Of a stretch of 64,000 nucleotides of DNA, positions 20,161-59,400 are shown piece after piece. The notes beneath the pieces are model-generated. The model did not search any database. It was not told the DNA's origin and was given only the letters and a program-made list of their open reading frames with translations. A program made the translations under genes and the position numbers. Location of the stretch: assembly GCF_963675165.1 (NCBI RefSeq), contig NC_087388.1, positions 2,148,800 through 2,212,799 on the forward strand, given 5' to 3'. Numbering within the stretch: the first letter of the stretch is position 1; each line of letters opens with the position of its first letter. Source of the DNA: Halichondria panicea. Lineage: Eukaryota; Porifera; Demospongiae; Suberitida; Halichondriidae.

Positions 20161-20239
20161 ACGATTTACCACGAACAGGTATAGTATGACGACACACATG
20201 TGCTGTGTTTGGAAATTGGTTCTACTGCTTTCAAAAATG

Positions 20240-24935: not shown

Positions 24936-25012
24936 ATACAATTGATTGGTTGGGAAGGTGGGATATAAGTAAAAAAGCAGATTTCATCCACTGCATTTTT
25001 ACACAGCCATCA

Positions 25013-34468: not shown

Positions 34469-35996
34469 ATGTCAGAGAGTGATAAAGGTATACATCTACC
34501 TATAATTATGAGCTTACTATAATAATTTCTTTATTATAATTATAGGTTGGTTTATAGTGGCTCAATGATTTATAGCAGCCCTTTAATAAATAACTGATAA
34601 TATACCACCTGTTTTCCACCTCACAAAGCTGTTAATTATACACCAAGGTCAAAGGTCATTAAGCTAGTACCCAGTTCAATCCATGACTACTGTAAGACCT
34701 CCAAATATGCGACACCCAGGAGCTTCAGCAATTTTCTGACCTCTAAAAATAGCGACAGCTGCATTGACAATTATTTTTTAATGTCGCGTTCTAAATAGAG
34801 GTACATGTAGCCACTCCCTATAGCCTCGATCGTAGCCCACTGGAAAATCAGTGTTTTTAAGCGGCCTGAAATCGAGGCAAGTAGACTCTGTAAAGTTACC
34901 TCTAATTAGATGCGACCCTCTAAATATGCGACACCAGGACTTCAATATAATTTTTTAACCTCCAAAAGAAGCGACCTCTGGCTTTGTAATTATTAAAAAA
35001 TGTCGCTTAAATCGAGGTCTTATGGTAATTGTTAGAGCTGCACCGCACCTGTCGTACCTACGTACGTCTTCTGTACCCAGTTTAGGCATGCAATGATCCC
35101 CTCCCCCACTTTCAGAAGCAATTAATAACTGGAGGCGAGTACCGTTATAGTGATCCTATAATTATTAATTTTGTTATCACAATTAAAACAATCACTATTC
35201 TCTAACACAGGTTGTACATGTTCTATGATGAGCTGTAAACATGCATATGATGAAATGCCATGCAGTGAGAATGTAAGTTTCGAAGAGTTAGAAGAATTAT
35301 CAGAGAAGACAAGATCATTAATCCATAATACAGAGGTTCGGAAATTAGTACAAAAGTTCTTACAACGATTATCAAGAACTATGAAAAATACTGAATTTGT
35401 AGCATTCATGAACCAGCTAAGTGTGACTCTTCTATCAGGATCAGAACAGGTGTCTGCATCGTGCTCAGCTATGCAAGCTGTTAAGATTCACTCGGAACAG
35501 TTTCAGTGGTTTAAGCTAGTCCAGCTTCAAAACTGTGTAGAAATTCTCAACAATTGTTCTGAGTTACAAATAGCAACACTAGGAGAAATCCGACATTACG
35601 TTTACTCATACATTGAACATGAAAGAACAGAGTTATTGAGCTGTAAGAACTGTAAAGTTGCCTTCAAAATAGATCCGATGTATACAAATACTTTCGAATG
35701 ATCGATCGACATTACTGGAAGAGTGTATTACTACTTACTACCATGATCTGTTTGGACTAACTTCAATATCCTTTCAGTATTTGCCATTAAAAAAATATCA
35801 GTCGTCCTTCATTGGTACTCATCCTGTTTCGGAGAGTCTCTACGACAGTGATCGTAGTTCATTTGTGATGGAACAAAAGCAAAGAGTTTGTAATACTGAG
35901 TCTGTCACAGGTGTCGATACACAAATGTTGGAGGTTTCTACAAGTTATTGTCTGGAATCGAACATGAAGCTTTTTGTTAACATAGCTAAACCCTAA
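34469..35996 (+). pseudogene. Frameshifted copy of the unrecognised 270-aa gene
   Basis: Exon 1 34469-34487 (MSESDK plus one base) and exon 2 from 35211 (CTCSMMSCKH) mirror 5254-6172. The frame stops at TGA 35699-35701 because of a 2-base insertion after KIDPMY relative to block 1. Homology resumes in another frame (YQSSFIGTHPVSESLYDSDR) to a stop at 35994-35996. The first 163 residues are intact and very similar to block 1, so a shorter protein could still be made. Confidence 0.65.
34680..35030. mobile_element. MITE-like repeat with two related halves
   Basis: Starts TGTAAGACCTCCAAATATGC and ends AAATCGAGGTCTTATGG. Each half has the order AAATATGCGACACC, AATTTT, AGCGAC, AATGTCGC, so it looks like a tandemly doubled element. 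It lies in the intron of the gene at 34469-35996. Confidence 0.5.
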
Positions 35997-36529
35997 CACA
36001 GTGGCAGATCCTAACACTGACTTTACTGGTTGACCCTCATCTTATCGATCTAGATCTCAAATAGCCCAAATGACATTAATAGTTTGCTGTGTGTAGATCA
36101 TAATTATTATGTCAATAGATCTACATGTATGTATACATACACATTAGCAATGGTCACAGTTTTGCCAATATTGAATTTTGTTGATATTGACGCATGCGCA
36201 GTGTGTAAACAAATGTCAGGTGGAAATTGATTTAATGTCTTCTTCAAGACTCTGAGGTATTACACTTTCCAGAATGTGGCAATGGACTCTGATAAATGGA
36301 CCAACGGTAGATTACGTCATAGAGGCTTGAGAGCTTGCATGGTGGGTGGGGCTCACACAACAAGCTGATACCACACACAGCTAGCTAGAGATATATAGAC
36401 TAGTTATATCATAGATAATAGAGCATGCACAGAAATATGGTTATATAAAGTACCCCCTGCAGCATGTACTATGTCTTAAAGCAAAAGGATATGGAAGGCT
36501 GCATGCACATTTTAATTTTTAATGCATGT

Positions 36530-37690
36530 CTGGTTCTACCGGGTTGCCCTACAGTTTGCCAGTTTCTTTATCCGTTTCATTGCAAACTTCTGTTCACAGG
36601 ATCTACAGCAAACAGTGTTGCATGTTACACTTGCTTGATTGCATTTGCTCCAGGCATCATTAAAACCTGCTGGTTGGTCCATTAAGGGGCCTATTAAAAT
36701 TAGGTGCATGGACCAACTGCCTGGACGACTGGTAAAAGAATTCACCCAGCTTGCATAAAGTGTTCTAGGTGGGCAGCTCATTTCAAAGCTTGCAGGGGTT
36801 CGTTGGCATCAGGAAAACCTGCTTGTTGGTCCATAGGAGGCTGTTTCTGGAAACTAGGTGGACCAACGACCTGGACGGCAAGTAAGAAAATAGTCACGCA
36901 GCTTGAATAATGTGTTCCAGGCTGGTGTCACAGCTCATTTTTCAAAGTTTAGTGTCTCCATTGGCATCAATTAAAAGAAAACTTGCTTGTTGGTCCATAA
37001 GGTTTCCTTTTTCTGGAAATTAGGTGGACCAACGGCCTGGACGACAAGTAAGAAAATAGTTCACGCAGCTTGAATGCATTATTTAATGTGTTCCATGTTG
37101 GTATATCAGATTGGTGTCAGCTCGTTTCAAAGCTTAGTATCTCCGTTGGCATCAAAACCTGCTTGTTGGTCCATAAGGTTTCCTATTTATGGAAACTAGG
37201 TGGACCAACGACCTGAACGACAAGTGAGAAAATAGTTCACGCAGCTTGAATGCATAATTTAATGTGTTTGAGCTCATTTCAAAGCTTGGTGTCTCCTTTG
37301 GCATCATTAAACTGGAAAACCTGCTCGTTGGTCCATAAGGTTACCTGTTTATGGAAACTGGATGGACCAACGTCCTTGGACGACAAGCAAGAAATAGTTC
37401 ACGCAGCTTGATTTCATGTATACTCATTTCAATGTTTGGTGGCTCCTTTATAGCATTGAAAACCTGCTTGTTGATCTGTTAAAGTTTCCAGTTTCTAGAA
37501 ATTGGGTAGACCAACAGACAACAGGGGTAAGAAAAGAGTTTTTATGCAGCTTGCATTTATTGTGTTGGTTTCAACTTTCCAAGTTTGGTGGCTCCATTGG
37601 CATCAATTAAACGAGATAACTGCATGGGGCCCCATCGTATAAGTATATCATAAAAATTATTCCTGGAAATTCGATGGACCAATCCATGCA
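36530..37690. repeat. Left subterminal satellite of KDZ element (about 165-175 bp unit)
   Basis: Six to seven degenerate tandem units. Each has CCTGCTTGTTGGTCCATAAG, TTTCTGGAAA, GGTGGACCAACG(A/G)CCTGGA, then GAAAATAGTTCACGCAGCTT and TTTCAAAGCTT. TTGGTCCAT and ATGGACCAACG form an internal inverted pair in each unit, and the same TGGACCAACGG lies inside the terminal repeat at 36297-36307. Confidence 0.85.
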
Positions 37691-40600
37691 GGTAAGAAAA
37701 TAATTATGTTTCTCCAGTTGTTGACTGCTATTACATACAGTGCATGCTGCCTCAGTGTGGGACCTGACATCCTGTGGTTAGACATCATTCAACAGCTCCA
37801 TCTTTTGAATATGTGTGTGTGGGTGTTGTTGCATAAACTTTGCTATTTGATGTGGTTGATTTAAACCTGGCTGCGGTGCCGATTATGACATCTAATGAAC
37901 TCTGATCTTTCTGTTAATTCTATAGATCTAGACTTAGGCTGTATAATGACTGATTCTAATGAAGAGCAGGCTGCCACAGGCAATGAACAAGATGACTTTG
38001 AATTCTCGGTGAGCAACAGTGATACTGAGCCTCAGTCTAGATCTATATATAAAAAATAGTGATACCATGCACAAGTGAATTATGCACCGATCCATGTCAG
38101 TCCCCACTGCCCTCCCCCTGTAGGACATAGTGGGGTTTTGGTAACCCTGAGGTGCGGGATATAGGGTGAGAATTTGAGTTCCTTAGTATACAAACTTACA
38201 ACAGCAATATCCATGGAGAGAAGTGTATAGCACATGCACGCGTGTATAGTCAAATCCCGAGGTTATGAAGTGGGGGTATATGGGAGGGAAAGAGGCGATT
38301 TGATTTCACCCAGGCTCCCAGGATATTGATCATGCAAATCCACACTAAACCCCGACATACGTACACGGGGCGTAGTGGGGCTGAAATTGATACTTCTCCT
38401 ATCTATATAATTATATTGCTATTTTTGGGTGAACAATAAAATTAATATAATTATCCCGGACCTCTATAACATCCATCAATCATATCGTCATCATTATAGA
38501 AGGCCTATGATCCTGAATCGGTTTTCTTAATCTAGCAACATTGACCATGACGATATTTGCCGTGCATGGGTATATTATATATACCCATGTATATCTATAT
38601 ATATATATATATATTGTATCCAATGACATGTATATGAGTAATCAGTATAATTGGTTGGGTATCACTGCATGGGTGATTCCTATTCATTCATGCAACATCT
38701 GCAACACTGATGTAGTGAGTCGCTATAATAATGTATAGCTATCATTGTGCATGTGCTATGTACAAATGCACTAGCTCGTGGCAATAAAACACGTCATCAA
38801 TTATAGAAGGCCTATATGATCCAGTTATAAGCCACTCATGGAAACAGATTCGAGAGGCTAACGAAGATAAATATTCATTTTGCTCAAACAAGTTAAAGAA
38901 GAAGAGGAAACACTACCCTATAGTAAGAGAATTAAAGCATAATTAGTATAAATCTATATGGGTATGAATGCGGGGTATTCGATATTGATGTACAAGCCTG
39001 ATTGCTATTGCGAAATGCATGCGCATGCTCTTTCTTTGCGTTTATTTCGATTGCGAATTATGCATGCATTCGCAGTTTGCAATAGAAAGAACTATCTTCC
39101 AATATACGGTACCATCCATAACCTATTGCTAAGTGATCACGAAGAAGTAAATTAATCCCAAGTGTGTATTATATCGTTCAATTTGTGTCAGATCAAGAAA
39201 ATGCACTGAGTTGTTCAGGGAAAGGGAATCGTGTCAACTCAATTCAGGAGTGACCAAGAGGGCCATAATGAGCCTTTTGATGATATGACACTAAGTCAAG
39301 CCGGATACAAAGTACAGGTAATCGTACAAACTCAAACATTAGATCTCTACAATCATGCCATTGCAGGATAATGTTTCAAAGTCAGAAACAAAGCCGTCTG
39401 GAATTCCAGTGCCATTGCTGTCTGCATATCTCATCAGTGTACATGAACAGCGTGCTTTCAACTCATTGGACAACTCTCTCCGGTCGTTTGTTATACAGGG
39501 AATCAATAGAATCGATTCCTCTTTGAATGTAAGTATATTATCTTTTTCGTGCGTATAATTGCATGCATATAATATTATAAAAATTATAGAGAGATAAAGT
39601 ATAATTATATTCATGTAGGTTGGTCTGTTGATCTATTAACTTCACTGAGCATGGAGTTTCTTTTCGTCTCACGCTGTGGGTTGCACTTCAGTGATGGTAT
39701 ACAGTGGGTATACTGGTGCAGTTGTGATAGTGCACGTGGCCACTTACTAAATAGCTGCTCCACTTCGGTTGATTCCACATATGATGCATTCACAAGCATT
39801 GTTGGCTCTGAATGTATCCACATCGAACCAACTAGACTGATTATCCAAGAGACTGACAATATTCACAACATTACATCAGCTCAAGAATTATCAGGTACAT
39901 GTCTTCTAAAAGTGCATGCACAGCTAATATTTATGAATTATCCTCATACCCATTCAGATCATTCGTATACTTTGAATATCGAACCTCACAAGGAGGACAC
40001 TTCCTACAGTATAAATGTTGGCACAGAGGTAAGTTGGACACTATTGTGCATGCATGTACGTCTCCAATCACAACTATATAATTATAATGATTTACAGGTT
40101 GTATGCTCTATTGGGCAGGCGGTATGTACAAGAGCTGATATAGTGGCCATGGTGTTGTACAAGTTCGTATTGATGATAAACAATTAAGGGGTCTGTACTG
40201 TTGTACATGCAAGTACAATAAACAGCACAGTTCACATGTGGACATTGTCGAGAAAGCATTGAATAGCCCGGATGAGGATAAACATGACTGCCTCAATAAA
40301 ATTGCAAAAGATCTGTCTAGTGTGCAGCAGAATAGACAAGTGCATGTGCATCAGTATCGGTCCCTTAATTTCATCAAGCAGTATATATACCGTTCAATTT
40401 ATCAAGTGAATTGTCTCAACAACTGGCATGTACTGTAGCTGATCGCTTCAACATTGTAAACAACACTTCTATTTTGGGCTCAGTCGACACATATTGTAAA
40501 GTGTGCAGTACGCTTACACGAGATGAAGAAGACAAGCAGGAATCTGTATGGAGCAAAATTATACTGCTCAATACAGTTATCAATGCGAATGGTAGGTGGC

Positions 40601-41183
40601 TTTAGAAGTATAAATCCATAACAATTATTATATTGACCAAACAGTGCATGTTAGGTATTGCTCAGGATGTAAGAAACGTAAAGAATTTGATGGCCAACTA
40701 GTAGGATTAGTGACTATGGGCAAGTTCCTGGTATCCTATGAAGTTATGCGAGGTTTTATGCATCAATTCCTTTTGGGAAGGTAATTAATGTTGCATGTGT
40801 GTGCACTTTGACTATTAACGATACATTTCCTCTTCAGAACAACTATATATACCCAGTATTGTGTGTTGGTTAAAAACCATGAAGATGCAGGATTCGGCAA
40901 TCAGTTTAATAAGTATATGTTTACATACAATCACTATCGGTTGTCGTGGTATGCCTTTCTTGACCTGTTAGACATTGATTATCAAGTAGGATTTCAGTGC
41001 ACTGCGTGTGGAGATTGTCCACCCATTGTTGTCATGGATGCTACTTGTTTAGATTCATGCAGAAAAGACCTTATGCCCTGGAAGTCCCAACTCAACGGTT
41101 CTGGAGTTCATAAAACCTCATCCCCTATCAGCTGTACTGGAAGATAAGTGCAAATTTTCCCATGTCATCAACCCCTGTATATA

Positions 41184-41741
41184 ATCCGACTAGAAAAACA
41201 TTTGCAATGTGAAAAATTGCTAGGATTGGCCAGGGGAACCACAAAAAAGCGTGGGAACAAGAAATCAGACGAGAGCATAACTCCAATCCGTTACAACGTC
41301 AATCACATGTATACTGGTAGTTTTCCCATGTTTTCCCAGCCAATATGCCACGCAATTTTTACTGGTGGAGTGATGACCAATCCCTATATATATTTATTAT
41401 ACATCCATTTTAGAATGTGGGGCACATAATCATGATGATTTGTGATAAATTGATGTTCCTAATACATGCAGTGTTGAGCACAGGTACACACAGTCCATCC
41501 ATGCGTAGTAACATGCACGGACCGTACTGGTGACTGCATGGAATGATGTGGTGGATGGAAGCTGATAGGTGGATCTGGAACACAGTCTATTATTTAATAT
41601 ACTATGTATTGTACATGTTCATGACGTTGTAACGGATTGGAGTTATGCTCTCGTCTGATTTCTTGTTCCCACGCTTTTTTGTGGTTCCCCTGGCCAATCC
41701 TAGCAATTTTTCACATTGCAAATGTTTTTCTAGTCGGATTC
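41184..41741. mobile_element. Inverted-repeat element inside KDZ, arms about 118 bp
   Basis: AATCCGACTAGAAAAACATT.. at the left is repeated in exact complement at 41623-41741 (..AATGTTTTTCTAGTCGGATT). The arm sequence includes TTGGCCAGGGGAACCACAAA and recurs in diverged form at about 32665-32710. No clear target duplication. It lies between the first catalytic Asp exon and later exons. Confidence 0.8.
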
Positions 41742-42039
41742 CCTTTCTTTTTCAGTACAGTTTACGTATCATGACATGCATAAGTGGAACGTCAAGAGGC
41801 AGTACAAGAAGAGAAGACAGGACTAATCAGATATCTTCTCGAATATCTCTGGACTAATAATTATAGTATAATGAGTAATAATTTATTGCTTGATAATTAT
41901 GTTGAATTTGCGAATCAGTATTAAATGACAGCCATTTTAAGAGCATGATATCTAGCCAGTGCATATAGCATGCCTGTCAGAGAAAGGGAGCTAGAGCTGA
42001 ACAGTGTGAAGAAAAGGAACACCTCAGGCTCTGGAAAAG

Positions 42040-42815
42040 CAGAGATACAAAAGAAAGGGGATTGGAAACGATCGCCCACGCCCTATGTAAAAGGACTGAC
42101 ATCCGGTGAAGCACTCCGTGTAATTATTGCGCTCGCAAATAATTACATGGAGGACTGCGCTACGGTTTTGTATCCCTGGTTTCTAGCTCTCCTATCCACT
42201 AGAGATCACTCAGGGCCTGGGAGATACTTGAGAGAAGTAAGCTTATACCACTGACAAGCTCTAAGTCCGTTGTCTTTACTCTGTTTCCAATTTTTTTGAG
42301 TTTAGCTTGAATTACTCTATGTCAACTTTTCTCTGTCCCTCCTATGAAGTCAAAACAGCAAAGGACATTGCTTGACTTGGTTATTATGTATCTAAGTGCT
42401 ACATAGAATGGCTTCATGCTATAAATAAGCTGTACTGTTCATAAACGTTTGCAGTATAGTCCTTCAAACTGCTTTAGTATACTTTTAGACACACCACGGG
42501 CCTGTCCCTCCTACGACTTCATAGTAAAGGCTATTTCTTCTTGCATAGCATTTATTTGTCTAGTAATAGTGGCTGCGTGGCTTAGTCGACTTTTTAGAGC
42601 TAAATTCTCTTTACTTTTTAGAAAAATCAACATTAAAAATGATCAATTTCACTGTTTCTATGTACAGCACATTGTAGAGCAGTCAAGACAGGTAATGAGC
42701 ATGCTGACTATAAATATAATCCTTTGTAGTTTTAGCCACGCCCTATAACGCGGAATGCTTCACGCAAAAATTTCGTAAAAATTTCGTTTCCAATCCCCTT
42801 TCTTTTGTATCTCTG
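42040..42815. mobile_element. 776-bp element CAGAGATACAAAAG inside KDZ, 7-bp TSD
   Basis: Ends CAGAGATACAAAAGAAAGGG and complement CCCTTTCTTTTGTATCTCTG, flanked by GGAAAAG at 42033-42039 and 42816-42822. The interior has open stretches (for example 42090-42254 with GEALRVIIALANNYMED, and 42449-42748) with no family I recognise. Confidence 0.8.
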
Positions 42816-43077
42816 GGAAAAGCACTGCTGCACTGATTTTAGGCGCACGGTTTATTAGCCACGCCTATCTATTATTATTGGCCACAACGCAATTGCTGAG
42901 TCATTAAAGATGGCGGAATTGTCTAGGTAAGAGAAATAGAGACTGAGAGGTCATCTGCCTTGTGGAAGCAATCGCAAATCTGAAGAAGCGCTTTGTAATC
43001 CAGGTTGTAGTCGTTTGGAAACCCTGTGCAGAATGTCCTGGAGATGGCTGTACTTGGAGTAAATGCTGGGCAAGAAA

Positions 43078-43116
43078 CTTACTTACTTACTTACTTACTC
43101 ACTTACTTACTTAGTC
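43078..43116. repeat. (ACTT)n microsatellite
   Basis: About nine near-perfect copies of ACTT/CTTA, ending in AGTCAGTCAG, inside the KDZ element. Confidence 0.9.
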
Positions 43117-44307
43117 AGTCAGACAAAGAGCGGTGAAACGTCGAAATAGTGCAATTTTTAAAATGAAAATATTCATTCATTAAAATGTTTATGGATTATG
43201 AAATGAGAGATACAAAGAGAGAAAAGGCTAAATAAACTATCTGTTCAGCCAGTTTCTTGATGTGGCCTTTCCCTGCAGAGATAGAACAGTTTGAACATGA
43301 GTCAAAATAATTGAAATATTGCTAAACACAGGCAAACCCACTGCCAATCCTATGTAAAACCTACTGGTTTTACTAATGATTATATATATAATGATAGTCC
43401 TCCCTGAGCTAAGACAAAATAAATACCTTGCCAAGCATGCATGCACAGATTTATTCAAAACTTGAATCCATTTGTAGAAGGTGCCTCTCATCATAGTAAT
43501 CATATACAGTGTGGCGAAAGCTGTTTTACTTATTCAGCAATTATTGTTGTGATAAGTTTAGGATCATGCGGACAGCTGAAAAGTTACTGTATTTATTTTC
43601 TTTCAACACTAGTTTCCATGATGGGATATACATCAACAACAAGACAACACACACGCAGCTGAAGATGTTTACTACAAAGAAGTGTATAAGCCAGCATGAA
43701 TTCACTTCTCTTCTAGAATTACTACATTTGCACGCACCAAGTTTGGTCAAACTTATCACCACAATAGCTAAAGAAGTCAACGAGGCTGATACAGCTGTCT
43801 CCTGTTGCAAGCACTGGATTAATTTACTGCAAGCTCTCAGTTCAGCATCACCTGTGTGTGCTTTGGTACCACCTACAGAAGAAGTGCACAAAATGCTAAA
43901 GGAAATGGAGTCTTCTGGCTCCTTGAAGTCAAATGCAAAAAAGATGGCCTTTCTACAAAAGGAAGCTCCAGTACTGTTCACTTTAATTGAATGTCTTCCT
44001 TCTTACCCCACTGAAGCATTGCAGCCTATACTAAAAAGGCTTGTGGAATTATCATTAGCCCCATTTACGCAAGACTTCACAGAGTCTAGTACTGGTGACC
44101 ACACTGACATTAATGATGATGATATGATATCGTACTTTCCAAAGCTTCCTTCACTAAGAAAACGAAAGATTTATAAGGCTGACAGTTTTAAATCCTCTGT
44201 ATGTACAAAAAAAAGCTCAAGACATCCATCACTGCTACCGGGGATATTTACTCTGTATTGTCAGCATGGTAATGCTGCATGCATGATAATTATAATTATT
44301 ACGCCTC

Positions 44308-44512
44308 TACCGTATTACTAGAATATTTTGCAGGTGAAAAACCTTTGCGAATGAGCCAAATCAGCAGAAAATTTGACCCTTTGCGATCTAACTATTGTGT
44401 TCTGGCAAGTATTTACTAGTAATAATTTAGGTTTTGCGGATTTTATTGATCAACCCTCGCAAAATTCGCAAATGTTTGATGCTCGCAAAACATTCTAGTA
44501 ATAATTATGGTA
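44308..44512. mobile_element. TACCGTATTACTAGAAT MITE in KDZ transposase intron
   Basis: Ends TACCGTATTACTAGAAT and ATTCTAGTAATAATTATGGTA in inverted orientation, about 205 bp, within the intron between 44268 and 44539. Confidence 0.65.
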
Positions 44513-45367
44513 CATTAATTTGCATCAATATTGTATAGGAATTTGCTATGGATTCCAACTGATGGAAGTTCAGGAATTCCCAAACATTCCTTTCACTATC
44601 TTATATGAACGATTCTCATCAGGTATAAATGCTATATATATCGGGATGATTATTTTTAAACTCTTCCGGCATGCAATTGCATAATATAATTATATGCCCT
44701 TGTATCTGCAGCACCTGAAGTCATCATATACGACAATAGTTGCAACCTGCACCAATACTGCTTGAATAGAGAGCCCCCCTTTTTCAGGCACAGTCGGTTT
44801 CTAGGTCTAGTAGATCGTTTCCATTGGCCAAATCATTCAGGTATAATTATAATAATTGTATGTTAAGTATAATTATATGATTTTAATTACCATGCACTTA
44901 TATATCATACAGGATGCAGTGTTGCTTACAAAATGAGCACCTATAGACAATAATGATGCCTTGAATAGCCAGATGGTAGAGCAAAGCAATTCATGCTTGA
45001 AGAGAATCAAATCGTCACTGTCGTATATGAATAAAAGAAATTTCCTCACACATTGTGGATTTTATTTATGGTATCACAATCAGAAAAAACTATAAGTATA
45101 ATGTACTCACATGCATGATGGTCTTGTCATGCACTTTTTGTTTTTACAACCATGAATTTAAAATTGTGGCGTCACTTGTTCTGACTTATCATGCATGCGT
45201 TACAATAAGGGGTGACTGAAGAAATTACACACAAAACAATCATATTATATGCATGGGGGAATAACAGATGAGAAACTATATGAGGGAAACTAGTAACTAT
45301 ATTATTGCACATAATTATATACAATAAAAAATAAACATTCTGAGCTATACTACAAGCTATACAATTA

Positions 45368-45655
45368 ATGTTAAGTAAAAATAGCAGTTAAGGCTTCGAT
45401 TTTGCTGTCTTCTTAACAGATACACTGGCATCATCATCAGTCTATTGCATAGTAGACAATGTCGGTATAGTTTATATACCAGCATGCATTGAAGCATGCT
45501 CATATACACATTATACAAGTACATAGCAATCAACGTTTGTGAATGCATGAACACAATCATGAGTGCGTGTCAGTGTGGTGTACTCACCTGCAGATCTGTA
45601 TTAGCAACCCTTTTACTCCTTCTGACGCCGTGAGATGTCTTTTGGCTGCAGTATA
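45368..45655 (-). other. Possible 3' exons of a minus-strand KDZ accessory gene
   Basis: On the minus strand a segment reading KTSHGVRRSKRVANTDLQ (complement of about 45594-45647) ends at a donor-like GTGAG. A later segment reading DDDASVSVKKTAKSKP then stop (complement of about 45394-45442) follows an AG. The two join into a basic, nuclear-looking tail. No domain is recognised and upstream exons were not found. Weak. Confidence 0.3.
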
Positions 45656-46929
45656 TAGGTACACATGAGGGAGTAGCCAAAATCATTTTTTTTTACCTTT
45701 GTTGAGTGGAGTAGCATGATAACAGGATCAATCCACGTAATTCAGCAGTGTTTACAGACTTTTGCAGGTGCTTTGATGCAGGTAGTCCAGAAAACTGATC
45801 AATTGTGTTAGTGTAAATACTCATGAATGCTTTTACATATACCATCACGTACCTTGACCATTGTCATAATAATTATTGTGTATCACATGAATGCCACATT
45901 CAACTCCATCCTGAGCGGCCACCTAATACAATAAACATTCGTGAAATAAAATCCATCACGAAACAAGGAGTGCGTGGAGTATCCAAGAAGACAAAAAAAA
46001 TTGCATTTGGGGCAACTAAGCAAGTCAATGATTTAACTTTTATGATTACCCCATGCATGTGCACTCTATAAATTATATACCTTCACACACTGTATATCCA
46101 TCTTTGCAGGTGATCGAATGCACATGCTTAAGAATTGATTAATGTCTTGTGCATGCATGTTGCCTGCTCAGTAAAAGGTGAGAGAATTGGCGACTGGGAG
46201 TCAAGAACATAGACACTACAGAAAAGGAAAATTATACTCACATTAGTAATAACCTTTTTGACAGACCAACAAAACATGTAATCCTATCACATAATATAAT
46301 GCATCCATGAGGAGAGCTCACATGCATGTATGGGTACTGGTCGAATTAGACTCCAGAAACTCAATCACATGCATAATAACGTACGTTTTCTTTGGGAGAT
46401 TGACAGCAACAAGAATCCAGTGCCAGCCTCTATAATAATTATGATGTATACGTGGGAACAATGAAATTCTCATAAACACAATATGAAAGTGAATTCAGTG
46501 TGACAACTTATACCTTACTCTACACGGAAACAGAATCCTTAAATGTCATTGTAGATTTCAGCATACAGAGTCGCAGTGAGGCTTTCATTCAGTCTGATGT
46601 ATAATAGAGTCTGTAGATGCAGCTGTATGATGAGTTTTTACGACAGTAGTCTGACAAATTGTGTAAACAAAATTAATAATTATAGACTTGAATTAGTCGA
46701 TATCATTGTGATCATCACAGCTGTAAAAGTGTACATACCAGACTGTCGTGTGTTACTTATTACCTTACCTGTCGTATAGGCTGTTGTCTATCCAATTTCC
46801 GGCTGGATATGATATTCTGATAGACCATGCAGGGAACAGGTTTTCGAGTTTCCAACAAAGCCACCATGCATGCAGCATTTGAAATGAGCTGATACCCACC
46901 TATAAAAGAATGAATGCAAGCTAAGCTGC

Positions 46930-48230
46930 ATGAACTATTTTCTTACCTGTCAGTGTCGTCCAGGCCGTTGGTCCACCCAGTTTCCAAAATAGAAAAGGTT
47001 ATGGGCCAACGTCCAGGTTTATTAGTATAACTGCATGATGCCAACGGAGAGCCACCAAGCTCTGACAACCAACTATGCAGGAACACATTAAAATAATGCT
47101 CAAGCTGCGTGAACTATTTTCTTACTTGTCGTCCAGGCCGTTGGTCCACCTAGTTTCCTTAATTGATGCAAACAAGAGACACTAAGCTTTGAAATGAGCT
47201 GACACCAACCTGGAACACATTGCATTCAAGCTGCGTGAACTATTTCTTACTTGTCGTCCAGGCCGTTGGTCCACCTAGTTTCCAGAAGCAGGAAATCTTA
47301 TGGACCAACGAGCAGGTTTTCTAGTTTAAAGATGCCAACGGAGACACCATGCAAGCTTTGAAGCTCACACCAACCTGGAACACATTAAAAGAAAGTGCGT
47401 GAACTATTTTCTTACTTGTCGTTCAGGCCATTAATTGTTCACCCAGTTTCCAGAAACATGAAACCTTATATGGACCAACGAGCAGGTTTTCCAGTTTAAT
47501 GATGCCAACGGAGACACCATGCAAGCTTGCTCACACCAAACTGGAGAACACATTAAAAAGAATACATTCTAAGTGTGCGAACTATTCGTCCAGGCCGTTG
47601 GTCTATCCAGTTTCCAGAAACAGGAAACCTCATAGACCAACAAGCAGGATTTCCAGTTTATAATGATGCAACGGAGACACCAAGCTTTGAAATGAGCTCA
47701 TAATCACACCAAACTGGAGAACACATTAAAAGAATACATTCAAAGTGCGCGAACTATTTTTTTACTTGTCGTTCAGGCCGTTGGTCTATCCAGTTTCCAG
47801 AAACAGGAAACCTCATAGACCAACAAGCAGGATTTCCAGTTTATAATGATGCCAACGGAGACACCAAGCTTTGAAATGAGCTCATAATCACACCAAACTG
47901 GGGAACACAGAATGCATTCAAAGTGCATGCATTTTTACTTGTCGTCCAGGCCGTTAGTTTCCAGAAACGGCCTCCTGTATGGACTAACGAGCAGGTTTTC
48001 CTGATGCCAACGAAGACATCAAGCTTTTAAATGAGCTCGGATACGGCTATAAAAAAGAATGCATGCAAAGTACAATGTAAGTAAACTATTTTCTTGCTTG
48101 TTATCCAGCCCGTTGGTCCACCCACTGAAATAGGAACTTTAATGGACCAACGAATGCATTTTCAGGTTTACCTGATACCAACGGAGCCATACCGAGAATG
48201 TTTAAACACTTGTACTTTGTGTAGGGAGTG
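46930..48230. repeat. Right subterminal satellite of KDZ element (mirror of left)
   Basis: Eight or so degenerate units, about 110-175 bp apart, in opposite orientation to 36530-37690: GTGAACTATTTTCTTACTTG, GTCCAGGCCGTTGGTCCACC, TTTCCAGAAACAGGAAA, ATGGACCAACGAGCAGGTTT, CCAACGGAGACACC. Confidence 0.85.
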
Positions 48231-48256
48231 AAAGGACGACACCAAGGAGACCTGGA

Positions 48257-48662
48257 CAGGGGCGCATCCAGGAAAAACAAAAGGGGGGGGCTAGACTAGC
48301 TAGAAAGGGACGCAGCCTCGCCGGAGGCGAATTTTTTTTGCAAGATTTGACCTTTGAACTTTCATATTAATGAGTAGAATACGTTGACCTCTGCACTTAC
48401 TTTTAATACTATGGTGATACTGTACTGATCAGATGTACGTACGTACGTACAGCTAGCTAGCTAGCTAGGTACGTCCAGCTAGCTACCCTAGATCCTTTAT
48501 ACTCCTAGTAGCTGTTGTCTAGCATCTCTCAAGTGATTTCAAGTGAGTCTACAGATGCATAATTGGTGGCAAAATTGTTGTAGAGTCAGACTACAACACA
48601 TGGTAGTTTTTTCAAAAGGGGGGGGCTTCAGCCCCTCAAAATCACCCCTGGATCCGCCCCTG
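48257..48662. mobile_element. CAGGGGCGCATCCAG element, copy c, 5-bp TSD CTGGA
   Basis: 406 bp with ends CAGGGGCGCATCCAGG and CCTGGATCCGCCCCTG and direct repeat CTGGA (48252-48256, 48663-48667). Same family as 21826-22214 and 11182-12012; interior polyG next to a CCTCGCCGGAGGCG stem. Confidence 0.9.
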
Positions 48663-49381
48663 CTGGACCAGCTGTTCCATACCTTTCTTAAATTGTTGCT
48701 TCAATTATAGATATATAGTAGAGGAATCGACAGACATGTTTCGAGAGACTACTCCCTTACTTCTTCTACTATCTATGCTTCAATCAACAGTAGATCTAGT
48801 CTACATGCTGCAGTGGATACTTGAGCGTCTAGCACTGTACTGTGTACGTGTGCATACTGCATGGGGCTTGTGTGTGTGAGCCCCACCCACCCTGCAGGCT
48901 CTCAGCCTCCTCATGACATAATCTACCGTTGGTCCATTCATCAGAGTCCATTGCTACACAGCCAAAAATCCACGGGCCGTTTCATGCCTGTTACGGGCCC
49001 GTTACAGGTATAAATCCACGTGGTGTATTCAACTGTTTGGTTAGGTACTGTTTAGCAGCCTGTGGATTTCAGCATGTAATCAGCCGTGGGACGGGCTGTA
49101 AGCAGCCTGAGCACGGCCTGTAAGCAGCCCTATGTTCTCAGTTAGTTCCGGTTTGCAGTTAAAAGCTGAGTTTGGCATGAATAATTCAACGAAGTGTTAA
49201 AATTTTTAAGAAACAAACATAGCCAGACAGTTCGACAGTTTACAACACTAATAGGAATGTTTCTTCTAGTGCTTGTGCTGCTCGAGTGTGTCACTGTGTG
49301 TATAAAGAAGACACGTGAATAATGGTTGGAAAGAAAATAATGTTTCTTACATTTATAAATTTTCTGTTTGACTGTTTGTAC

Positions 49382-50140
49382 TACCAGCCATGTCCTCTGT
49401 CACACTGTGTGTATAAAGAAGACATGTGAATATCGTTGCAAAGAAAATAATGTTTCTTACCAATATAATGTGTTGTTCGACTGTTCGTACTGTCCACAGA
49501 CCAGCCATGTCCTCTGTCACTGTGTATATAGTGAATATCGTTGCAAAGAAAATAATGTTTCTTACCAATATAATGTGTTGTTCGACTGTTCGTACTGTCC
49601 ACAGACCAGCCATGTCCTCTGTCACTGTGTATATAGTGAATATCGTTGCAAAGAAAATAATGTTTCTTACCAATATAATGTGTTGTTCGACTGTTCGTAC
49701 TGTCCACAGACCAGCCATGTCCTCTGTCACTGTGTATATAGTGAATATCGTTGCAAAGAAAATAATGTTTCTTACCAATATAATGTGTTGTTCGACTGTT
49801 CGTACTGTCCACAGACCAGCCATGTCCTCTGTCACTGTGTATATAGTGAATATCGTTGCAAAGAAAATAATGTTTCTTACCAATATAATGTGTTGTTCGA
49901 CTGTTCGTACTGTCCACAGACCAGCCATGTCCTCTGTCACTGTGTATATAGTGAATATCGTTGCAAAGAAAATAATGTTTCTTACCAATATAATGTGTTG
50001 TTCGACTGTTCGTACTGTCCACAGACCAGCCATGTCCTCTGTCACTGTGTATATAGTGAAATATGGTTGCAAAGAAAATAATGTTTCTTACCATTATACA
50101 TTTTTTGTTTGACTGTTTGTACTGTCACAGACCAGCCATG
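49382..50140. repeat. 105-bp tandem satellite, about 7 copies
   Basis: ACCAGCCATGTCCTCTGTCA recurs at 49500, 49605, 49710, 49815, 49920 and 50025 with essentially identical units; the first and last units are diverged. Because 105 is divisible by 3, four long open frames (about 230 aa) arise on both strands; they are period artefacts, not genes. Confidence 0.95.
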
Positions 50141-50144
50141 TCCA

Positions 50145-51160
50145 CAGCCAGTAACTTAACTAAAGCAAAACACAAACAAAGTTTTTATAATTATTATGAA
50201 TGATTGCTTACCTGCCAAATTCTGATAGTTCCTAAAGTATAGGTGTGTCCACGATGCTGTAATTAGACCAACCAATGTAAACGACAATAATTATTATTGT
50301 AAAATACCTTCTGGTCATGATGGGTTGAAATCATTGATGGCATGAGCATTCCAATTTATATATGTACATCTGTATGTGTGCATCAGTACACGAGTTTAAA
50401 GTGAGTTAAATAATTATTAATTGGCTCACATTCTCAAGTAGTGTGACAAGGAACCTCAATCTCGAGCTCATCAGTACAGTAATGATGACATAGACACAGG
50501 TACATCTGTGTGTGCATACGTACGTAAACGAGTTCGAGTAAGTGAGTCAATAATAGAACCTGAATCTCGAGCTCGTAAAGTAATGATGACACAATATCAT
50601 AGGTATACATTTTATATACCTCGTACTCACTTATATAGTAGTCGTTGTAGAGGTCCTTTTTAGATGTGTATTCCTATACATAAGCAGCATATTGACCAAC
50701 ATTTTAAAAACCAGCTGAGCACTCACTTATATTAAACGTTGTAGAAGAAGTCAACAACCTGCGTCAGAGGCAACCAGATCTGCAATACGAAATAACTCTG
50801 TCAACATAATTATTTATACATTACCACATAAGCACACCTTGTAGCCTATAGAGCTAGACTCCTAGAGACAGTGAAAGAAGAATTGCAGAGACATCTAGCA
50901 GCTGACAAATGGACAGAAGTGAGTATTAATTAGACCTACTATACTAGCTCCTTATTTAGACTCTACTTACTTCCTCTCTCTCTCTTTTCTTGCTAGCTGG
51001 CCTTGGCAGTCAGCTCCATAAATAATATAATTACTCCATCCATCCTTTAAAGCTGCAACTGAACGAGAACATCAAACTGAAGCACCTTTTCAGTCTCTTG
51101 GTGGATTTCGTAGCTAAGCAACTTTCTCTCTGCGCATGCGCATACACTGGCTGCACAGGC
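50145..51160. other. Unannotated interior of the CACAGCC element
   Basis: AT-rich with several short splice-like motifs and a repeated pair of segments (ACGAGTT..GTGAGT..GAACCT.AATCTCGAGCTC near 50390-50470 and 50525-50575). No protein recognised. Confidence 0.35.
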
Positions 51161-51369
51161 TGTAAGCAGGACGTGGGTGGTACAGGCTGAAACAGGCCCG
51201 TTATTTACGGTCCGTATTCAGGACAGGATGTACGTGCTGTAACAGGCCTGTGGTTCCAGGATGTAAGCGGGCCGTGGGCGATTACATCCGCATACAGGCC
51301 CGTATTCCGGCCTGTATTCAACTGATTTTCCCCACGGGCCTGAAACAGGCCTGTGGATTTTTGGCTGTG

Positions 51370-51688
51370 TAGTTGGGAGGAGCCCGACCGTCCCTGACGG
51401 GAGGTCGGGTTGCAAGCCTATCTGGGATTTGTTCTAGCGCCACTATAGTGGCGCCCTATTAGATTGCAGCATTTTTCACGTGGCTTGGTTACACTTCCGC
51501 TTGCATCTAGTTGCAAAACCGCATGCAGTATATTGCTGTGCCGTCCTGTGGTTTACACGTCATCAAGTCGGTTAACACCCACTTGAGAATAATAATATTC
51601 ATAGCAGTACTACATAATGCGCAGAACAAATTCCAGATAGGCTTGCAACCCGACCTCCCGTCAGGGACGGTCGGGCTCCGCCCAACTA
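51370..51688. mobile_element. 319-bp TAGTTGGG element, 9-bp TSD GTCCATTGC
   Basis: Ends TAGTTGGGAGGAGCCCGACC and its complement GGTCGGGCTCCGCCCAACTA, extending about 60 bp (GGTCGGGTTGCAAGCCTATC). Target duplication GTCCATTGC at 51689-51697 and, beyond the later 2.4-kb insertion, at 48946-48954. Same length and end pattern as 6682-7000. Confidence 0.85.
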
Positions 51689-51996
51689 GTCCATTGCCAC
51701 AATCTGGAAAGTGTAATAACTCAGACTCTATATTTCCAAGCTACCAAATGTCTCCTCCTTGGAAGTTTATGTGGCCAACTATGAGCTGTCTACAGATGGA
51801 CCTGCTTTACAACTACTAAAATCAAAGTGCAGGTAAATTCAGCATGATATCTAGATCTAGCCTGCCATATCGATATTCACTGTTTCTGATCTGGCTAGAA
51901 ATGTAAGTAGAAATGTAATTTGTGGAGACTGCTCAGCTGCATTGTAGCCACAGTAGTTGCATTCATATAGTTATTTAAGGGTCCTAAAAGGATACA

Positions 51997-52461: not shown

Positions 52462-52564
52462 AGGGAGGTGGCTCGCTCTGACTCCGGACTGCTGGCCTCC
52501 CCCACTCACGAGGCACTGAGAACTCCCTTTGGGTCACCTCCAGAGCTGTCGCTATGGATTGTGT
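52462..52564. repeat. Conserved about 103-bp dispersed repeat, copy 2
   Basis: Differs from 7572-7674 at only a handful of positions by eye, including the loss of the TGATGA found in copy 1. Confidence 0.5.
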
Positions 52565-55500
52565 CTAAGGTATAACTTACGTGTATTAAATGTGAATATG
52601 AACCCAAAGACATAACATTCTTAAACTACACCCAATAAACCATAAACCATCAGTACTCCCTGTATCCAGTCTGGTTGATCCTATATACAAGAGTGTTCAC
52701 CTCTTGATGGTTTTTCGCACAGGCTGGTTACATAAAAAATCCAAAGACGGCTAAAATTCTGAGCAATCTTCAATTGAAAGTGAGTCACTCATTAGCAGGT
52801 CCCACATTGTTAATATTTATCTTATTTTTAGTTACAAAGAAAGGTAGTGCTGAATCACACCATACTCCAAGCTTGCTATCACTTCACCCTGGTCGCCCGC
52901 CTGGCCCCTAAGTGGAACAGAGTCCTCTCATGGCTCCTACAGGGTATGTCTAAATTATCTCCGTGTGTGTGTGCGTGCGTGCGTGCGTGTGTGTGATTGC
53001 TCGTATGAGACACTGACAGTCTGTTTTGTTATCCAATCAAGGTTGTGAGTTTTTAACAGAAGGAAAAGGGCAAGGGATTGGTAGGTGATATTGTTTTTTC
53101 TAGATTTGTGCATTTTGGAAGACTTACATTGTACTCATCCACCGTTTTTTAGACTTACAAGTTGGGCTGACTAATGAGGAGATAACGGTCACTCTCTCTG
53201 TGTACAAGTTCTCGTTTAGTCTGATGAAGGTAAGCTGTAATTATTGCAATCTTTAAGCGTTTAATGCCATGCTCAGAGATTGATTATGCCTGTCTTGTTC
53301 AGGTGGAAGACCTACTGACAACGTTTTCTCTGCTCAACACCTTCAGGACGGATCCCCAGTGTGTTATCAATGAAGGCAGTATCTACAACAATAGGTGCTT
53401 TCTGCTACCTAAGTAAGTGTGGCACAGATATTGTGGTCACCCTGTAAGCAAGTGACCCTCTATATACAGGCACGCTAATAAGCCCCAAAATGTTCATAGT
53501 AAGAAGTTACATAGTTTTGTGATTGAAGAGTTAGGAAGCAAAAGTACCGGGCCTCAAGTAACATCTGCGCTACGTTGCGGTTTAGTTGAGGCCATCACAA
53601 CAATACCTATTTCTACACACAGTGCATAATAAGCTACAAGTAACTGCTCAGTCCGTGCAACTTCAAGGTCTAGTAGTAGTTATAACTTATAACCAGCACA
53701 CTTACACGTTCCACGTTCCATTGGCTCTAAAATAGCCTTGGGAAGTTTTTACTGGAATATGTCTCTTTTACTGGGTGTGGTCAGTCATTAGCAAGTACTA
53801 CACGTGGCTCACAGACTAAGGCGTGTTATAAATTGCTGAAAGCGAAGAAACACAACTGAGGGAGTTACGCTTAATAGCCTCATTCATAGGGCGTAACGTG
53901 GATCCTTGCCATAACGCAATAATTGATTGCAAAGGGTCTACTTTTCTGCTGATCTAGCTCATTCGCGAACGTTTTTCACCAGCATATAATATTGTAGTAA
54001 TACAGTATCACGCTAATGCTCTTTGTTAACCCCAGCTAATCGGTGTGCCCACTCATTCCCTTTGTTCCAGTTTCACTGTGGGCTACATCTACTCCACCTC
54101 TCACTTCCTTACCCCTGGCACAGAGTTCCAAAGCTATGACCAAGTTAGGCTACACTGGAAGAAACAGGTGATTGAGTGTACAATACATACTCTCTGCACG
54201 ATCAATGATGTGGATAGATTCATGACTAGCCTTGCCGTTACCAAAGCAAAAAGCAATATGCACTACATGCTGGTATTTTTTTCTTGTCTGTGTCACTATG
54301 TTTAGATGTTTATTCCTTATAAAGTGAGGTCCCAGGAGGCCAGGGCCTAGGGGTGTTCATTTTGACCAAAGTTACTCGAGGCTTATGATCGTCCTTGGTA
54401 TAAGCCCTTGGGTGTCTCATTACCGATTGATTACTTGTCTGCTTTAAAGTGATGTTTGTACATAATGTACATTGTCATGTATTTATTTATACACCTAATG
54501 TTACCCTGGCCATCTCTGTACATTGTAACACTTTCTTTGCAGCATGGTATTATTCTTCCTGAGAGGGAGAATCTCTTCTACCAGGTGTTCTTTAAAGGGA
54601 ACCCAAGAAAGTTTTTCAGGTAACAGAAATTGTAACTGCGTGCATATCTACATGTAACTAACTATAATTATATGAATGACATAACAATACCGATTTGAGT
54701 TAATATATTAAAGTTACTCACTCTCCTACACAGTTACCCAGGCAGCTGTGTGTATAAAAACAAGCCGATCCACTTCCCCAGCCGAGACACTGACCAGGTC
54801 GCCACTGCATTCATAGCAGACTTACACGCCCGACTACAAACTCAAGTGGTTCCGAATATTCGTATTCCACAACAGTTCACAGGACCTCGTGTTGTACCTA
54901 TATTGAAGTATAAAGTGACAGCACCTTCAGTAAACAAGACAATAGCTCCTCAGGCAAAACCTAAGGCTCCTATCGTACCAATATTCAAGCCTGTTTCGAT
55001 GGGAACAAATTCTCAGTTGCTCGGCAAGAGGCAGACAGTGAAGAACTCAGTAACTGAAGCTACAAAAAGGCCATGTTTAGAGCCTATAGTTACAACTCAA
55101 ACAACAGTACTCGATGCATGCGCACAGCAAACACAGTCTCAAACTATTCTCAAGAAATCATTGCATCAATTGAACACTAAGAAACGACGAGCCCCTCAAT
55201 CAACCACCAAGAAGCTTTAACTAACAAGTACTGCCCCCAAACATTCCAGAAGCCCTAACCACACCGCAGTCAGCAGCCAACACACACCAATCAAACAGTA
55301 CCTGATCTGAACTACTCTCTACTGGGCGAGCTTAACGATGACTTTGATTTCCTCCCGAGCAAAGCACCCACACTCAATAAAGGAGTAAAGCATACTCAAT
55401 GCAATACTGCAAGCACTGGAACCATGTTCACTGGAGTCAGCCCAGACCTTGTGAAAAAGGTATGCAGTTGTACTAGCCTAATGTTTTAACTGAAACATGA

Positions 55501-56183
55501 AGATATTGTGAGTGTGTATTGTAGCTGATTCTAGTAAAGTCCTCAAATTTGAATGCCTCACTCAGCTTCTAGACTGAGATTATTCACAATGTTAATGGGA
55601 AAATTTGGCGGGAGTGTTTTAGTGTGACAATATTTTGGCAAATTTCACCGAAGATCCTAAATTTAAACGCCAATATTACAGCTAAGCAGTGAATGCAACG
55701 TCAGACATGCCCAAGACGCCAAATTAAAAACTGCCAATTACAAGTATAATACTCCCCATGATGTTTTCATGTTATACGGTATAATAGCGTAATGTATATC
55801 TCCCCAGGTCAACAAGACCAAGGCAGCCGGTTTGAAAAAGTGGCTGTTAGACAATGGGGTCAAGTGTCGCAGCAAAGAAAAGAAGGAAGATCTTGTGAGA
55901 ATGGTTGTACAGCATATCACATCAACTGGCAAGAACTTTGAACTTACTGTCTAAACTAGTACCTAAAATCATGTTCATTATTATCAGACTGCATGTGTAC
56001 ACTATATTTACAATGCAAAGGGGATTTCGAAGTTGATACTGTTTATTTACCACAAACAGGTGGTATGACGACATACATGTGCTGTGTTTGGAAATTGGTT
56101 TCTACTGCTTTCACGATTGCACTCAAGAGTTGCTATTATGAGTGGCAGCACTAACATGTCCCCTCTATATATACACACTGCAG

Positions 56184-56413
56184 GTGCTGACAGCCAACGA
56201 ATGCGTTATTGGGTGAAGGCTGTATTCCCCATGATTGGTGGAAAGGGTGGTGGCAGTAACGTGTCCTCTCAAGCCTCTGGTCCGTTGGTCAACAAGGTAC
56301 AAGAAGCCATTCAAGCTGCCAGGGAGTTTTCCTCACATACATTTGATGCAAGTCCTTTTTCAATAATAAACATGCATAAGTATTTTTGTCCACATTATGC
56401 TGTGCATTTTTGA
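56184..56413 (+). pseudogene. Alanyl-tRNA-synthetase C-terminal-like exon fragment
   Basis: After an acceptor (TGCAG at 56179-56183) the frame reads GADSQRMRYWVKAVFPMIGG, then GKGGGSNVSSQASG and KVQEAIQAAREFSSHTF. The GGKGGG plus QA-G plus QEA--AA-EF order is that of the DHHA1/C-terminal part of alanyl-tRNA synthetase, where GG(K/R)GGG is highly conserved. Only this exon is present; no editing or catalytic domain is nearby. The donor seen in block 2 (GTAAGT) is GCAAGT here. The frame runs on to a stop at 56411-56413. A duplicated exon relic is the simplest reading. Confidence 0.5.
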
Positions 56414-59400
56414 TCAAAAGTCTTGTTCAAAGTTATATAGACATGCAGTGCATGGTTCATGGTTCTCGGTAATAATTAGCTGTAAGACCTTGATTTAAAT
56501 TGAGATCTTACCGCAATACGGTAGATCTACATCCTGTATAGATCTAGATCTGTAGACTATAGTGTTTTCCCTAGCTTATAGTTGCTGGGAAATTAGTGCA
56601 CATGCATGCAAAACCTACTTACACTATAGATCATGAACAATGCATGGCAGTGCTGCTATTGTGGTCCAACTGTGAATACGGTTTCTGAGAATAACTTTTC
56701 TGTGCTAGATCTATAGTTTATTATACCTGCATTACATAATGTTTGGATGGCTTTGTGGGTAATCTCCCTTAAAATCACCAGCCACTATTTGGTCAACAAT
56801 AAGTTACTCAAGATTTATAGGTGCTACCTCAAAGCCTGCTATCTGCTGTCAAACTGGTCCTGTCTGAGCCACCACTCTAAGCTTGCAAGAGCCAAATTGT
56901 TACCTTGAAGCCTAGTCTATCTTAATAGTGGTAAGTATTTAGATCTATCTATACTATAGATCTAATTTAAAGCTATACATGTAGATATTTAACCCAGGTA
57001 CAGAGGTAATGAATATTGAGAGATATGGCTTGTCAGTTCCTATATAGACTAGCTATAATCTTAGCTCTTATAGTTGTGAAATTCGTTTGTAGTATAACTA
57101 TATACAATTTACAACAGCTCATCGTGTGCCATTAATTAACTCGAGGCAAATAGGTGGCCACGAGTCAGAGGAGGTAGGACACGCATCACGTGCGTTTCAA
57201 TAAATTAAAATCCAGGTTTAACCGCAAAGATTTAGACAAGGATCTGTGCATGAAAAGTGATGGTCTTTAAGCAGCCAAAACAGCAGCGATTCCATAACAA
57301 TTTTCTCTAAAATTTTAGCTATCATGTAGTGAAAGGATAGTACTAACTTGTGGATCAGCAATCCCAGTGGGATCCCGGCTCAATAGCTTGAAATTCACTA
57401 TCAAACCTAGTGATTTTTACTGTACATAAGCTACTACGGAGAGCAGTCTAGGGAGGTTAACTCAAGTTGGTTGCCGTCTTCCATAACAGTTTACAATATT
57501 CGAGATTACTTGAAGGTGATGTGAGCTTGCTAGAGAGCTCAACAGTAAATCTACCACAGGCACCATAGTTACACTGAAATGTAAGGAAAGGTTAAAGGTC
57601 AAGAGCCTAATGTAAACATTTTATGCCACACATTCCATTGCCATGTGACTGATGACACACATCCCACCTCCTCTGGCCACGAGTTATAGTAGTCTGCTGG
57701 TCTGTGATTCTGAGTCTGCTCACCTGGGAAGTTTGGGGGCCATAAAATTGACGTGCTGTGGTGCATTCTAGTATAGTGTTTGACGATTGAACTATCTATT
57801 CTCTGCGAAAAATGTTCCGTACAATAACTTATAACACTTGTAAAATACTTGCAGAATAGTTTGTCGTAACTTTTGCTTTTTAGCCATGTCTTTTCCTTGA
57901 CGGTACGTCTATCCAACTCAATGCTGGGCGGGGAGGCCTCTTTCCTACTCCACTGGCACTGGAATAGCCTCAACACAACTAGTTATTAGTGTATAATTGC
58001 GACAGATTTTGATATTAAAGCTTTGTTGTCGAATAAAACCAACCAAAAGCTAGCTACTTTGCATGCCTTTAGCCCAGAAAGTAACTTTTTTGTTTTCACT
58101 TGCTTAGGAAAATTTTGATGATATTATGCTACTAAAGATTATTACGAGTCTGTGCCTGTAACTGCACGAGTGACAGTTACTAGGCACACGAGTGATAATC
58201 ATCAGTATTCATGGGATAATGCATTTATTGCTTGGAAACCAAAATGCAGGTTGAGTATGCACATCAATCAATCAATCAATAAGATTTTATCCAAATGAGA
58301 AAGGGTCACACAGTATAGGCTTTACAGCCTCTCGATCGAGGTGCTTCCCTCCCCGCTGCACACAAAAAGACTCAGATATATCAAACGAAATGTTTTTACA
58401 TTATGAGGTGATGTCGAAGTGCTGACTTACATGTAAATGAGATCAAGGTATACCGTATTATTAGCGCTTACTCGACTATAAGCGTATCTTTATTTTAAGC
58501 GCATGCTCAACTGCAGGCTTTTTATACTCGAATTGAAGCGCTTTTCCAATTATGCGAAGGTTATTAGTGACATTTTAGAGCTAATTTTAATCTATGAGCT
58601 AGTTAGCTTGTACAGTGCATGATAGCTATATAGCTGGTGATATCCATCTGTAAGGACTCTCTGGGCATGCTGTTACCTTATCTGATCATGCTGAGAGAAT
58701 GTGAGACATGGATGAGGTCCTTTTATTCCAAGTTCCTGGTCAATAATCATATGGATGTTTTTATAATGTGAATTTAAGTGATGTAAATGAACTGTAAAAT
58801 GAACTGTAACATAATAGTATAACAGTATGATATAGATCCAGTTAGGGTTGCCTGCTTGCCTTGCTTGCTCACTTTCTAGCCAGCTTGCTAGTCAGCTCTC
58901 ATCACAGAGACATCCGGTTGCTGGGTGGGGCTCGAAATGACTGCATTATAGGCGCATTCTCGAATATAAGCGCATAGAGCTCTGCTATTGACCCTAAAAG
59001 CGCATGCGCTAATAATATAGTTTCTATGGTAGTGCAGCTTACATTGTTAGAGGGTAAAGCGTTCCACTGAAAGCAGCTATTAATTTTCCATAAATGAGTA
59101 TCTGTAGCAGTTTACTCTAGTATGCATGCTTGCAGAGTAGTGACAGGTGGTGTGACCTTATTGACTGACTTGAGATACGGTATAATGGTTATTGAAGCAC
59201 AAGCAGTCCATCTATGTGGAATTTCTCGCATGCATGCGTGACATGTGGTTGTTTTGTCAACCAGAAGGATGCGTAGCAACAAAATTGATTTTCTCCCAGT
59301 TGAAGACGAGGTAAGAAAAAGAAGACGGCTAAAAGATAGAGCACTAAAGTGCAAACCCTCGGCTGGTGACATGAAACCAGTAGAGTGATATAATGCAGTG

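Follow-up and report, generated by a model that had tools for sequence, protein, structure and literature searches.

A putative KDZ-family transposon carrying nested elements in codon 7 of one tandem C18orf63/DUF4708 paralogue of Halichondria panicea

The loss of one tandem duplicate through the insertion of a transposon is a known kind of event. Here we describe a locus of the sponge Halichondria panicea, within a stretch of 64,000 nucleotides (NCBI RefSeq assembly GCF_963675165.1, contig NC_087388.1, positions 2,148,800 to 2,212,799 of the forward strand; hereafter the window, to which plain coordinates refer), where a large DNA element, named A, lies in the first coding exon of a C18orf63 homologue (Pfam family DUF4708). 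The closest described elements are the KDZ transposons (Kyakuja-Dileera-Zisupton, Pfam PF18758). Zisupton and a Dileera family are reported to make 8-bp target site duplications, and two Kyakuja families to make 7-bp duplications and have CA..TG ends without inverted repeats (PMC12730594); nematode Zisupton-like elements are reported to carry inverted repeats, and a duplication was not detected (PMC9297572).

We propose with high confidence that a KDZ-family transposon inserted in codon 7 of one of the tandem C18orf63/DUF4708 paralogues, that further elements are nested inside it, and that this gene copy was nulled. A young insertion which disabled one redundant copy is the most likely account, and it corresponds to ordinary biology with unusually clean evidence.

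Insertion site and its paralogous empty site

The inserted DNA is 15,469 bp long (36254-51722) and, as the initial annotation had pointed out, is bounded on both sides by a perfect 7-bp repeat, AGACTCT. ATGTCTTCTTCAAGACTCT closes the left flank at 36253, and the right flank opens with AGACTCTATATTTCC at 51723. The insertion itself begins with GAGGTATTACACTTTCC and finishes with GGAAAGTGTAATAACTC; these ends form imperfect inverted repeats some 35 bp long (GAGGTATTACACTTTCCAGAATGTGGCAATGGACT on the left, the reverse complement of GAGTTATTACACTTTCCAGATTGTGGCAATGGACT on the right). The heptamer occurs 13 times in the window against 8.2 expected, a count reached by 5 of 100 shuffles. When the flanks are joined, the first coding exon begins MSSSRLYISKLPNV / MSSSRLYISKLPNVSSLEVYVANYELSTDGPALQLLKSKC, stays open and closes at a good splice donor (CAG/GTAAAT), and the insertion point falls after the first base of codon 7, in agreement with the proposed cut at codon 5-7. 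The features of the split copy are the following.

36235-36253, + strand: left piece of exon 1 of the split C18orf63-like gene, from the ATG through the left AGACTCT
36247-36253, unstranded: left target site duplication, AGACTCT
51723-51729, unstranded: right target site duplication, AGACTCT
51730-51832, + strand: right piece of exon 1, to the donor CAG/GTAAAT
52464-55220, + strand: other coding exons of this copy (52464-52569, 52723-52779, 52832-52943, 53042-53080, 53153-53229, 53303-53412, 54071-54167, 54543-54619 and 54734-55220, the last to the stop)

Joined exon 1 and the nine following exons, with all introns between GT..AG, encode an open frame of 427 amino acids (aa). This protein matches the Pfam family PF15813 (DUF4708) across the join, from residue 6 to 280 and over profile positions 3-272 of 274 (E=1.6e-39), with 136 bits against a curated cut-off of 27, and the C18orf63/DUF4708 identity given in the initial annotation is thereby supported.

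Direct evidence came from a search of the assembly to which the window belongs (131 Mb in 39 contigs), with a 325-base query made of the joined flanks. Four matches were obtained: the two halves, one weak match to a flank only, and one continuous match (C12:2219532-2219847, 96% identity over query bases 6-325) situated beyond the window end and 18.8 kb downstream from the right half. It belongs to the third of three tandem units described below, whose C18orf63-like gene is intact and contains the same sequence as the left piece of exon 1. From C12:2219664 onward this unit reads ATGTCTTCTTCAAGACTCTATATTTCC, with a single AGACTCT and without footprint, so that the pre-insertion sequence deduced beforehand by removing the element and one repeat was found letter for letter. 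The mark of a true target-site insertion, an empty site where the duplicated bases occur once, is thus provided by a paralogue rather than an allele, and the joined query found no other empty site than that of unit 3 in the whole assembly. With this paralogous empty site, an insertion that was deduced becomes an observed one, and the duplication made by A is fixed at 7 bp, a length that further copies of the family support.

Other observations were made around the start codon. In unit 2, which contains the split gene, a further ATG at 36213-36215 opens a short reading frame ahead of the start codon; unit 3 has ACG at this place. Just 5' of the start codon, both units contain GACGCATGCGCAG (36189-36201 in unit 2), which we take to resemble an NRF-1 site. 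Removal of A as an intron, through GAG/GTATTA and CAG/ACTCT, was considered and rejected because the frame from the ATG reaches a TGA before that donor.

Composition and family of the inserted DNA

The insertion had been presented as one KDZ transposon of 15.5 kb. That total length stands, but the KDZ-type element accounts for only about 10.5 kb of it and the rest consists of nested transposons: A holds B and E, which in turn contain C and D, respectively. The four nested insertions and their duplications represent about 4.9 kb, and A without them measures 10,534 bp.

36254-51722, + strand: element A, a DNA transposon of KDZ type with a net length of about 10.5 kb, holding B, C, D and E; terminal inverted repeats of about 35 bp
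41186-43373, unstranded: element B, holding C; target site duplication TAAT; sibling copies of A continuous across the site
42040-42815, unstranded: element C, 776 bp, inside B; inverted ends of about 30 bp; target site duplication GGAAAAG
43500-45094, + strand: part of the A transposase (exons 43500-44268, 44539-44622, 44712-44840 and from 44913), consistent with GT..AG introns
48957-51369, unstranded: element D, 2.4 kb, in the first TA of E; inverted ends CACAGCCAAAAATCC; TA duplicated
51372-51688, unstranded: element E, a miniature inverted-repeat transposable element of about 319 bp, counting the two bases at 48955-48956 with which it starts; inverted ends about 66 bp long

A single 15.5-kb transposon was rejected on the basis of the sibling copies of A in the genome. 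Nine sibling places run uninterrupted across the B site, four siblings read through in full measure about 10.3-10.8 kb, and an uninterrupted A right end is present in other copies, where the window copy has E inserted in its right terminal repeat (target site duplication GTCCATTGC at 48946-48954 and 51689-51697). Within A, inverted arrays with units of very roughly 125-185 bp lie near 36.7-37.6 kb and 46.9-48.2 kb; B has inverted arms of 129 bp (41183-41311/41612-41740). Element C has at least 40 full or nearly full-length places, window copy included, 40 of 489 candidates having been scored. D includes a 105-bp tandem array (6.8 near-identical copies at 49426-50143), and the matches to its sibling places start at positions staggered by steps of 105 bases, which suggests that the number of units varies between places.

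Ten places in the genome besides the window copy have a long match to the left end of A, with several partial ones in addition. We fetched 27 A end stretches, of which six (L012, L013, L024-L027) stayed unpaired, the partner end being missing or unrecognised. Among the 11 copies examined at both ends, a perfect 7-bp duplication flanks six, namely those of the window, of contigs C4, C39, C13 and C17, and of contig C8 near 4.04 Mb. The copy on contig C1 matches at 6 of 7 positions. No matching duplication accompanies the four others, which are the contig C9 copy with its damaged left end, two further copies on C8 (one near 1.77 Mb, and one near 6.07 Mb for which two alternative right ends were tried) and the one on C10 near 2.36 Mb. 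When left and right ends were mismatched, none of the 120 pairings reached 6 of 7, and an 8-bp duplication never matched at more than 3 positions in any of the 11 copies. In the stretch C8:6064138-6082987, a single left end of A is succeeded by two right ends and two internal regions; this is a tandem or rearranged pair of A copies without matching duplication.

The assignment of A to KDZ was obtained after splicing of the transposase. The exons of the window copy translate as RHPSLLPGIFTLYCQHG-ICYGFQLM...APEVIIYDNSCNLHQYCLNREPPFFRHSRFLGLVDRFHWPNHSG-CSVAYKMSTYRQ, and the spliced product matches PF18758 with 29.7 bits (E=6.4e-7) for a 285-aa piece and 32.8 bits for a 100-aa piece, above the cut-off of 26.6, from the end of the first exon to the start of the fourth. 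The frame breaks in this fourth exon, so the window copy is probably non-autonomous.

Several results weigh against this reading. The match appears only when the exons are spliced by eye, and single exons and unspliced frames gave nothing: neither Pfam on ten single open reading frames of the window element, nor Pfam and NCBIfam on three whole stop-masked frames for part of the C9 copy, returned a KDZ match. In genome searches with PF18758 (65 candidates scored at each E limit), none of the 53 places listed at E<=0.001, nor of the 79 listed at E<=10, lies in A or its siblings. Hand-joined fragments of the C9 copy, whose frames were chosen with an eye to KDZ motifs, fell below the cut-off with 22.5 bits, and the tblastn comparison of this reading with three other KDZ-type places (C10:3936823, C5:3815748 and C2:5931355) gave 21.9 bits, a similarity not distinguishable from that of shuffled sequences, 4 of 60 of which reached this score.

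Tandem copies, age of the insertion and fate of the split gene

When the window was compared to its own sequence and to the following 20 kb, three tandem units appeared, built of a helicase, a C18orf63-like gene and a spacer. Unit 1 contains a match to the helicase end (272-380), an exon-2 relic (7570-7672) and a spacer (20164-26070). In unit 2, a helicase and the split gene are followed by a spacer (56045-60705). Unit 3 contains an open helicase frame and a C18orf63-like gene open over 624 aa, with AG and GT at all introns.

7570-7672, + strand: relic of C18orf63 exon 2, unit 1, 93% identical to unit 3
26247-31688, + strand: ZNFX1-like helicase of unit 2, upstream of the split gene, identified with Pfam
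55217-55218, + strand: site of a 17-nt gap relative to the intact paralogue; the frame now stops at TAA 55218-55220
55808-55955, + strand: C-terminal HeH/LEM-like exon, whose DNA is kept out of frame in unit 2 and in frame in unit 3

The 20 exon matches listed by a protein search of the genome all lie in three places of contig C12, and these correspond to one intact copy, one split copy and one exon relic. The gene described as cut is therefore one of two full-length tandem copies; it is split as stated, and the other is intact. The helicases, in which the Pfam ZNFX1 domain and AAA helicase domains were matched for unit 2, are open over 1813 aa (unit 2) and 1811 aa (unit 3) and were duplicated along with the C18orf63-like gene. 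Their identity is 91.7% in the first part and 97.1% in the second, but the change coincides exactly with the division of the query set at the window end, so no conversion break is claimed. Between the helicase and C18orf63, similar open frames were observed at 5354-6172 (unit 1) and 35171-35701 (unit 2). No solved structure matched the unit-3 C18orf63-like protein at E<=1.

As to age, the window copy of A differs from the C4 copy, the nearest of the four siblings compared, at 39 of 9554 aligned bases (0.41%, nested parts excluded) and from the C9, C39 and C17 copies by 1.2-1.5%. Aligned over 2399 positions, the introns of units 2 and 3 share 2278 (95.0%); leaving out intron 1, whose repeats inflate the difference, raises the identity to 95.6%. 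From these figures of 0.41% and about 4-5%, together with the empty site, it follows that A inserted after the gene duplication, and probably much later.

The reading frame from the ATG gives MSSSRL and then a TGA, which combines the final T of the duplication with the GA of the element; to the right of A, TAA TAA stands ahead of the frame, in which the first methionine comes at codon 170. We infer from this that the split copy is null and makes no normal protein, and that any function would be carried by unit 3. The last exon of unit 2 also shows gaps relative to unit 3, of 180 nt (in frame), 17 nt and 8 nt in this order (205 gap positions). The 17-nt gap brings in the stop and throws the HeH/LEM-like last exon out of frame, a lesion that unit 3 does not have; the HeH/LEM match is weak and does not reach the curated cut-off with either the piece (E=4.4e-5) or the whole unit-3 protein (E=0.00056). 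In the 427 aligned codons that precede the 17-nt gap, units 2 and 3 differ at 22, of which 11 are nonsynonymous (one-sided p=0.01 against a rough 3:1 neutral expectation), and the NG86 estimates are dN 0.011 and dS 0.041, which hints at constraint in one copy or the other after the duplication.

The course of events that we favour would be as follows. The cut-and-paste transposon A would have entered codon 7 of one tandem paralogue, a staggered cut producing the observed duplication of AGACTCT, and would have been struck later by, or have arrived with, the four smaller elements observed as A(B(C)) and A(E(D)). The insertion would separate the promoter and the start codon from the rest of the gene, and the intact paralogue 19 kb downstream would keep the function.

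False tandem duplications occur in assemblies of heterozygous animals, and units 2 and 3 could be two alleles laid end to end by the assembler, in which case the insertion would be heterozygous and the so-called paralogue the other allele. The gene copies are indeed alike (about 95% in the introns, 96% over the empty-site query), but the spacers of units 1 and 2, located ahead of units 2 and 3, have an identity of only 72-79% in the six pieces that align, far too low for alleles; moreover, the 7.5 kb read downstream of unit 3 contain no match to either spacer, and unit 1 is a third, older copy. We therefore take the tandem array as real, and a false haplotype duplication, rejected on the spacer divergence, appears very improbable. 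Equally slight is the probability that the split copy is still used, with a promoter and a first exon in A spliced to the C18orf63 exons and supplying a new N-terminus. The splice sites and the DUF4708 frame to the right of A are intact, and the deficit of nonsynonymous differences goes in the same direction; however, this constraint may have acted on unit 3, or before the insertion took place, an in-frame TAA TAA stands directly before the right piece with no in-frame ATG before codon 170, and the last exon is out of frame.

Within the preferred explanation, an inserted and nulled paralogue, the insertion might in addition be a recent polymorphism of a true tandem copy, as suggested in the initial annotation, and this addition has a real chance of being right while falling short of an even one. 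The perfect duplication and the 0.41% difference from the C4 copy, against about 5% between the introns of the gene copies, speak for it; the four additional insertions in A and the frame-breaking gap suggest some time without selection, and a second haplotype of unit 2 was not seen, the joined query having found the empty site in unit 3 only. Further points count on the other side of the favoured account. A may be older than the 0.41% indicates if the C4 copy descends from that of the window, the 17-nt gap may be older than the insertion, A then landing in an already shortened gene, and a fused transcript starting in A is possible but unsupported.

Comparison with known systems

Like KDZ elements, A has the transposase domain once spliced, a multi-exon transposase, terminal inverted repeats and a short duplication of fixed length. 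It has terminal inverted repeats in common with Zisupton, but not the 8-bp duplication of Zisupton and Dileera, and it has 7 bp in common with Kyakuja, from which it differs by its GAG..CTC ends with inverted repeats. A 7-bp duplication together with inverted repeats was not met in the excerpts consulted from three KDZ papers; A is a KDZ-type family with these two characters, a modest novelty. It is conceivable, although we consider it unlikely, that A represents an undescribed and young animal KDZ lineage (7-bp stagger, inverted repeats) and that the disabled C18orf63 copy still segregates; if true, the loss of a tandem duplicate would be caught in progress, with the exact ancestral sequence kept next door.

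Concerning the C18orf63/DUF4708 family, the locus shares the nearly complete domain described above and differs by the tandem duplication beside a ZNFX1-like helicase and by the HeH/LEM-like C-terminal exon of unit 3. It may illustrate the ongoing loss of a redundant animal gene whose function is poorly known, and it calls for caution in annotation, one C18orf63 copy being split and another whole. Compared with the known losses of tandem duplicates by transposon insertion, there is no difference in kind, since here likewise one copy is split and the frame of its neighbour is open; here, the paralogous empty site lets the pre-insertion state be read directly.

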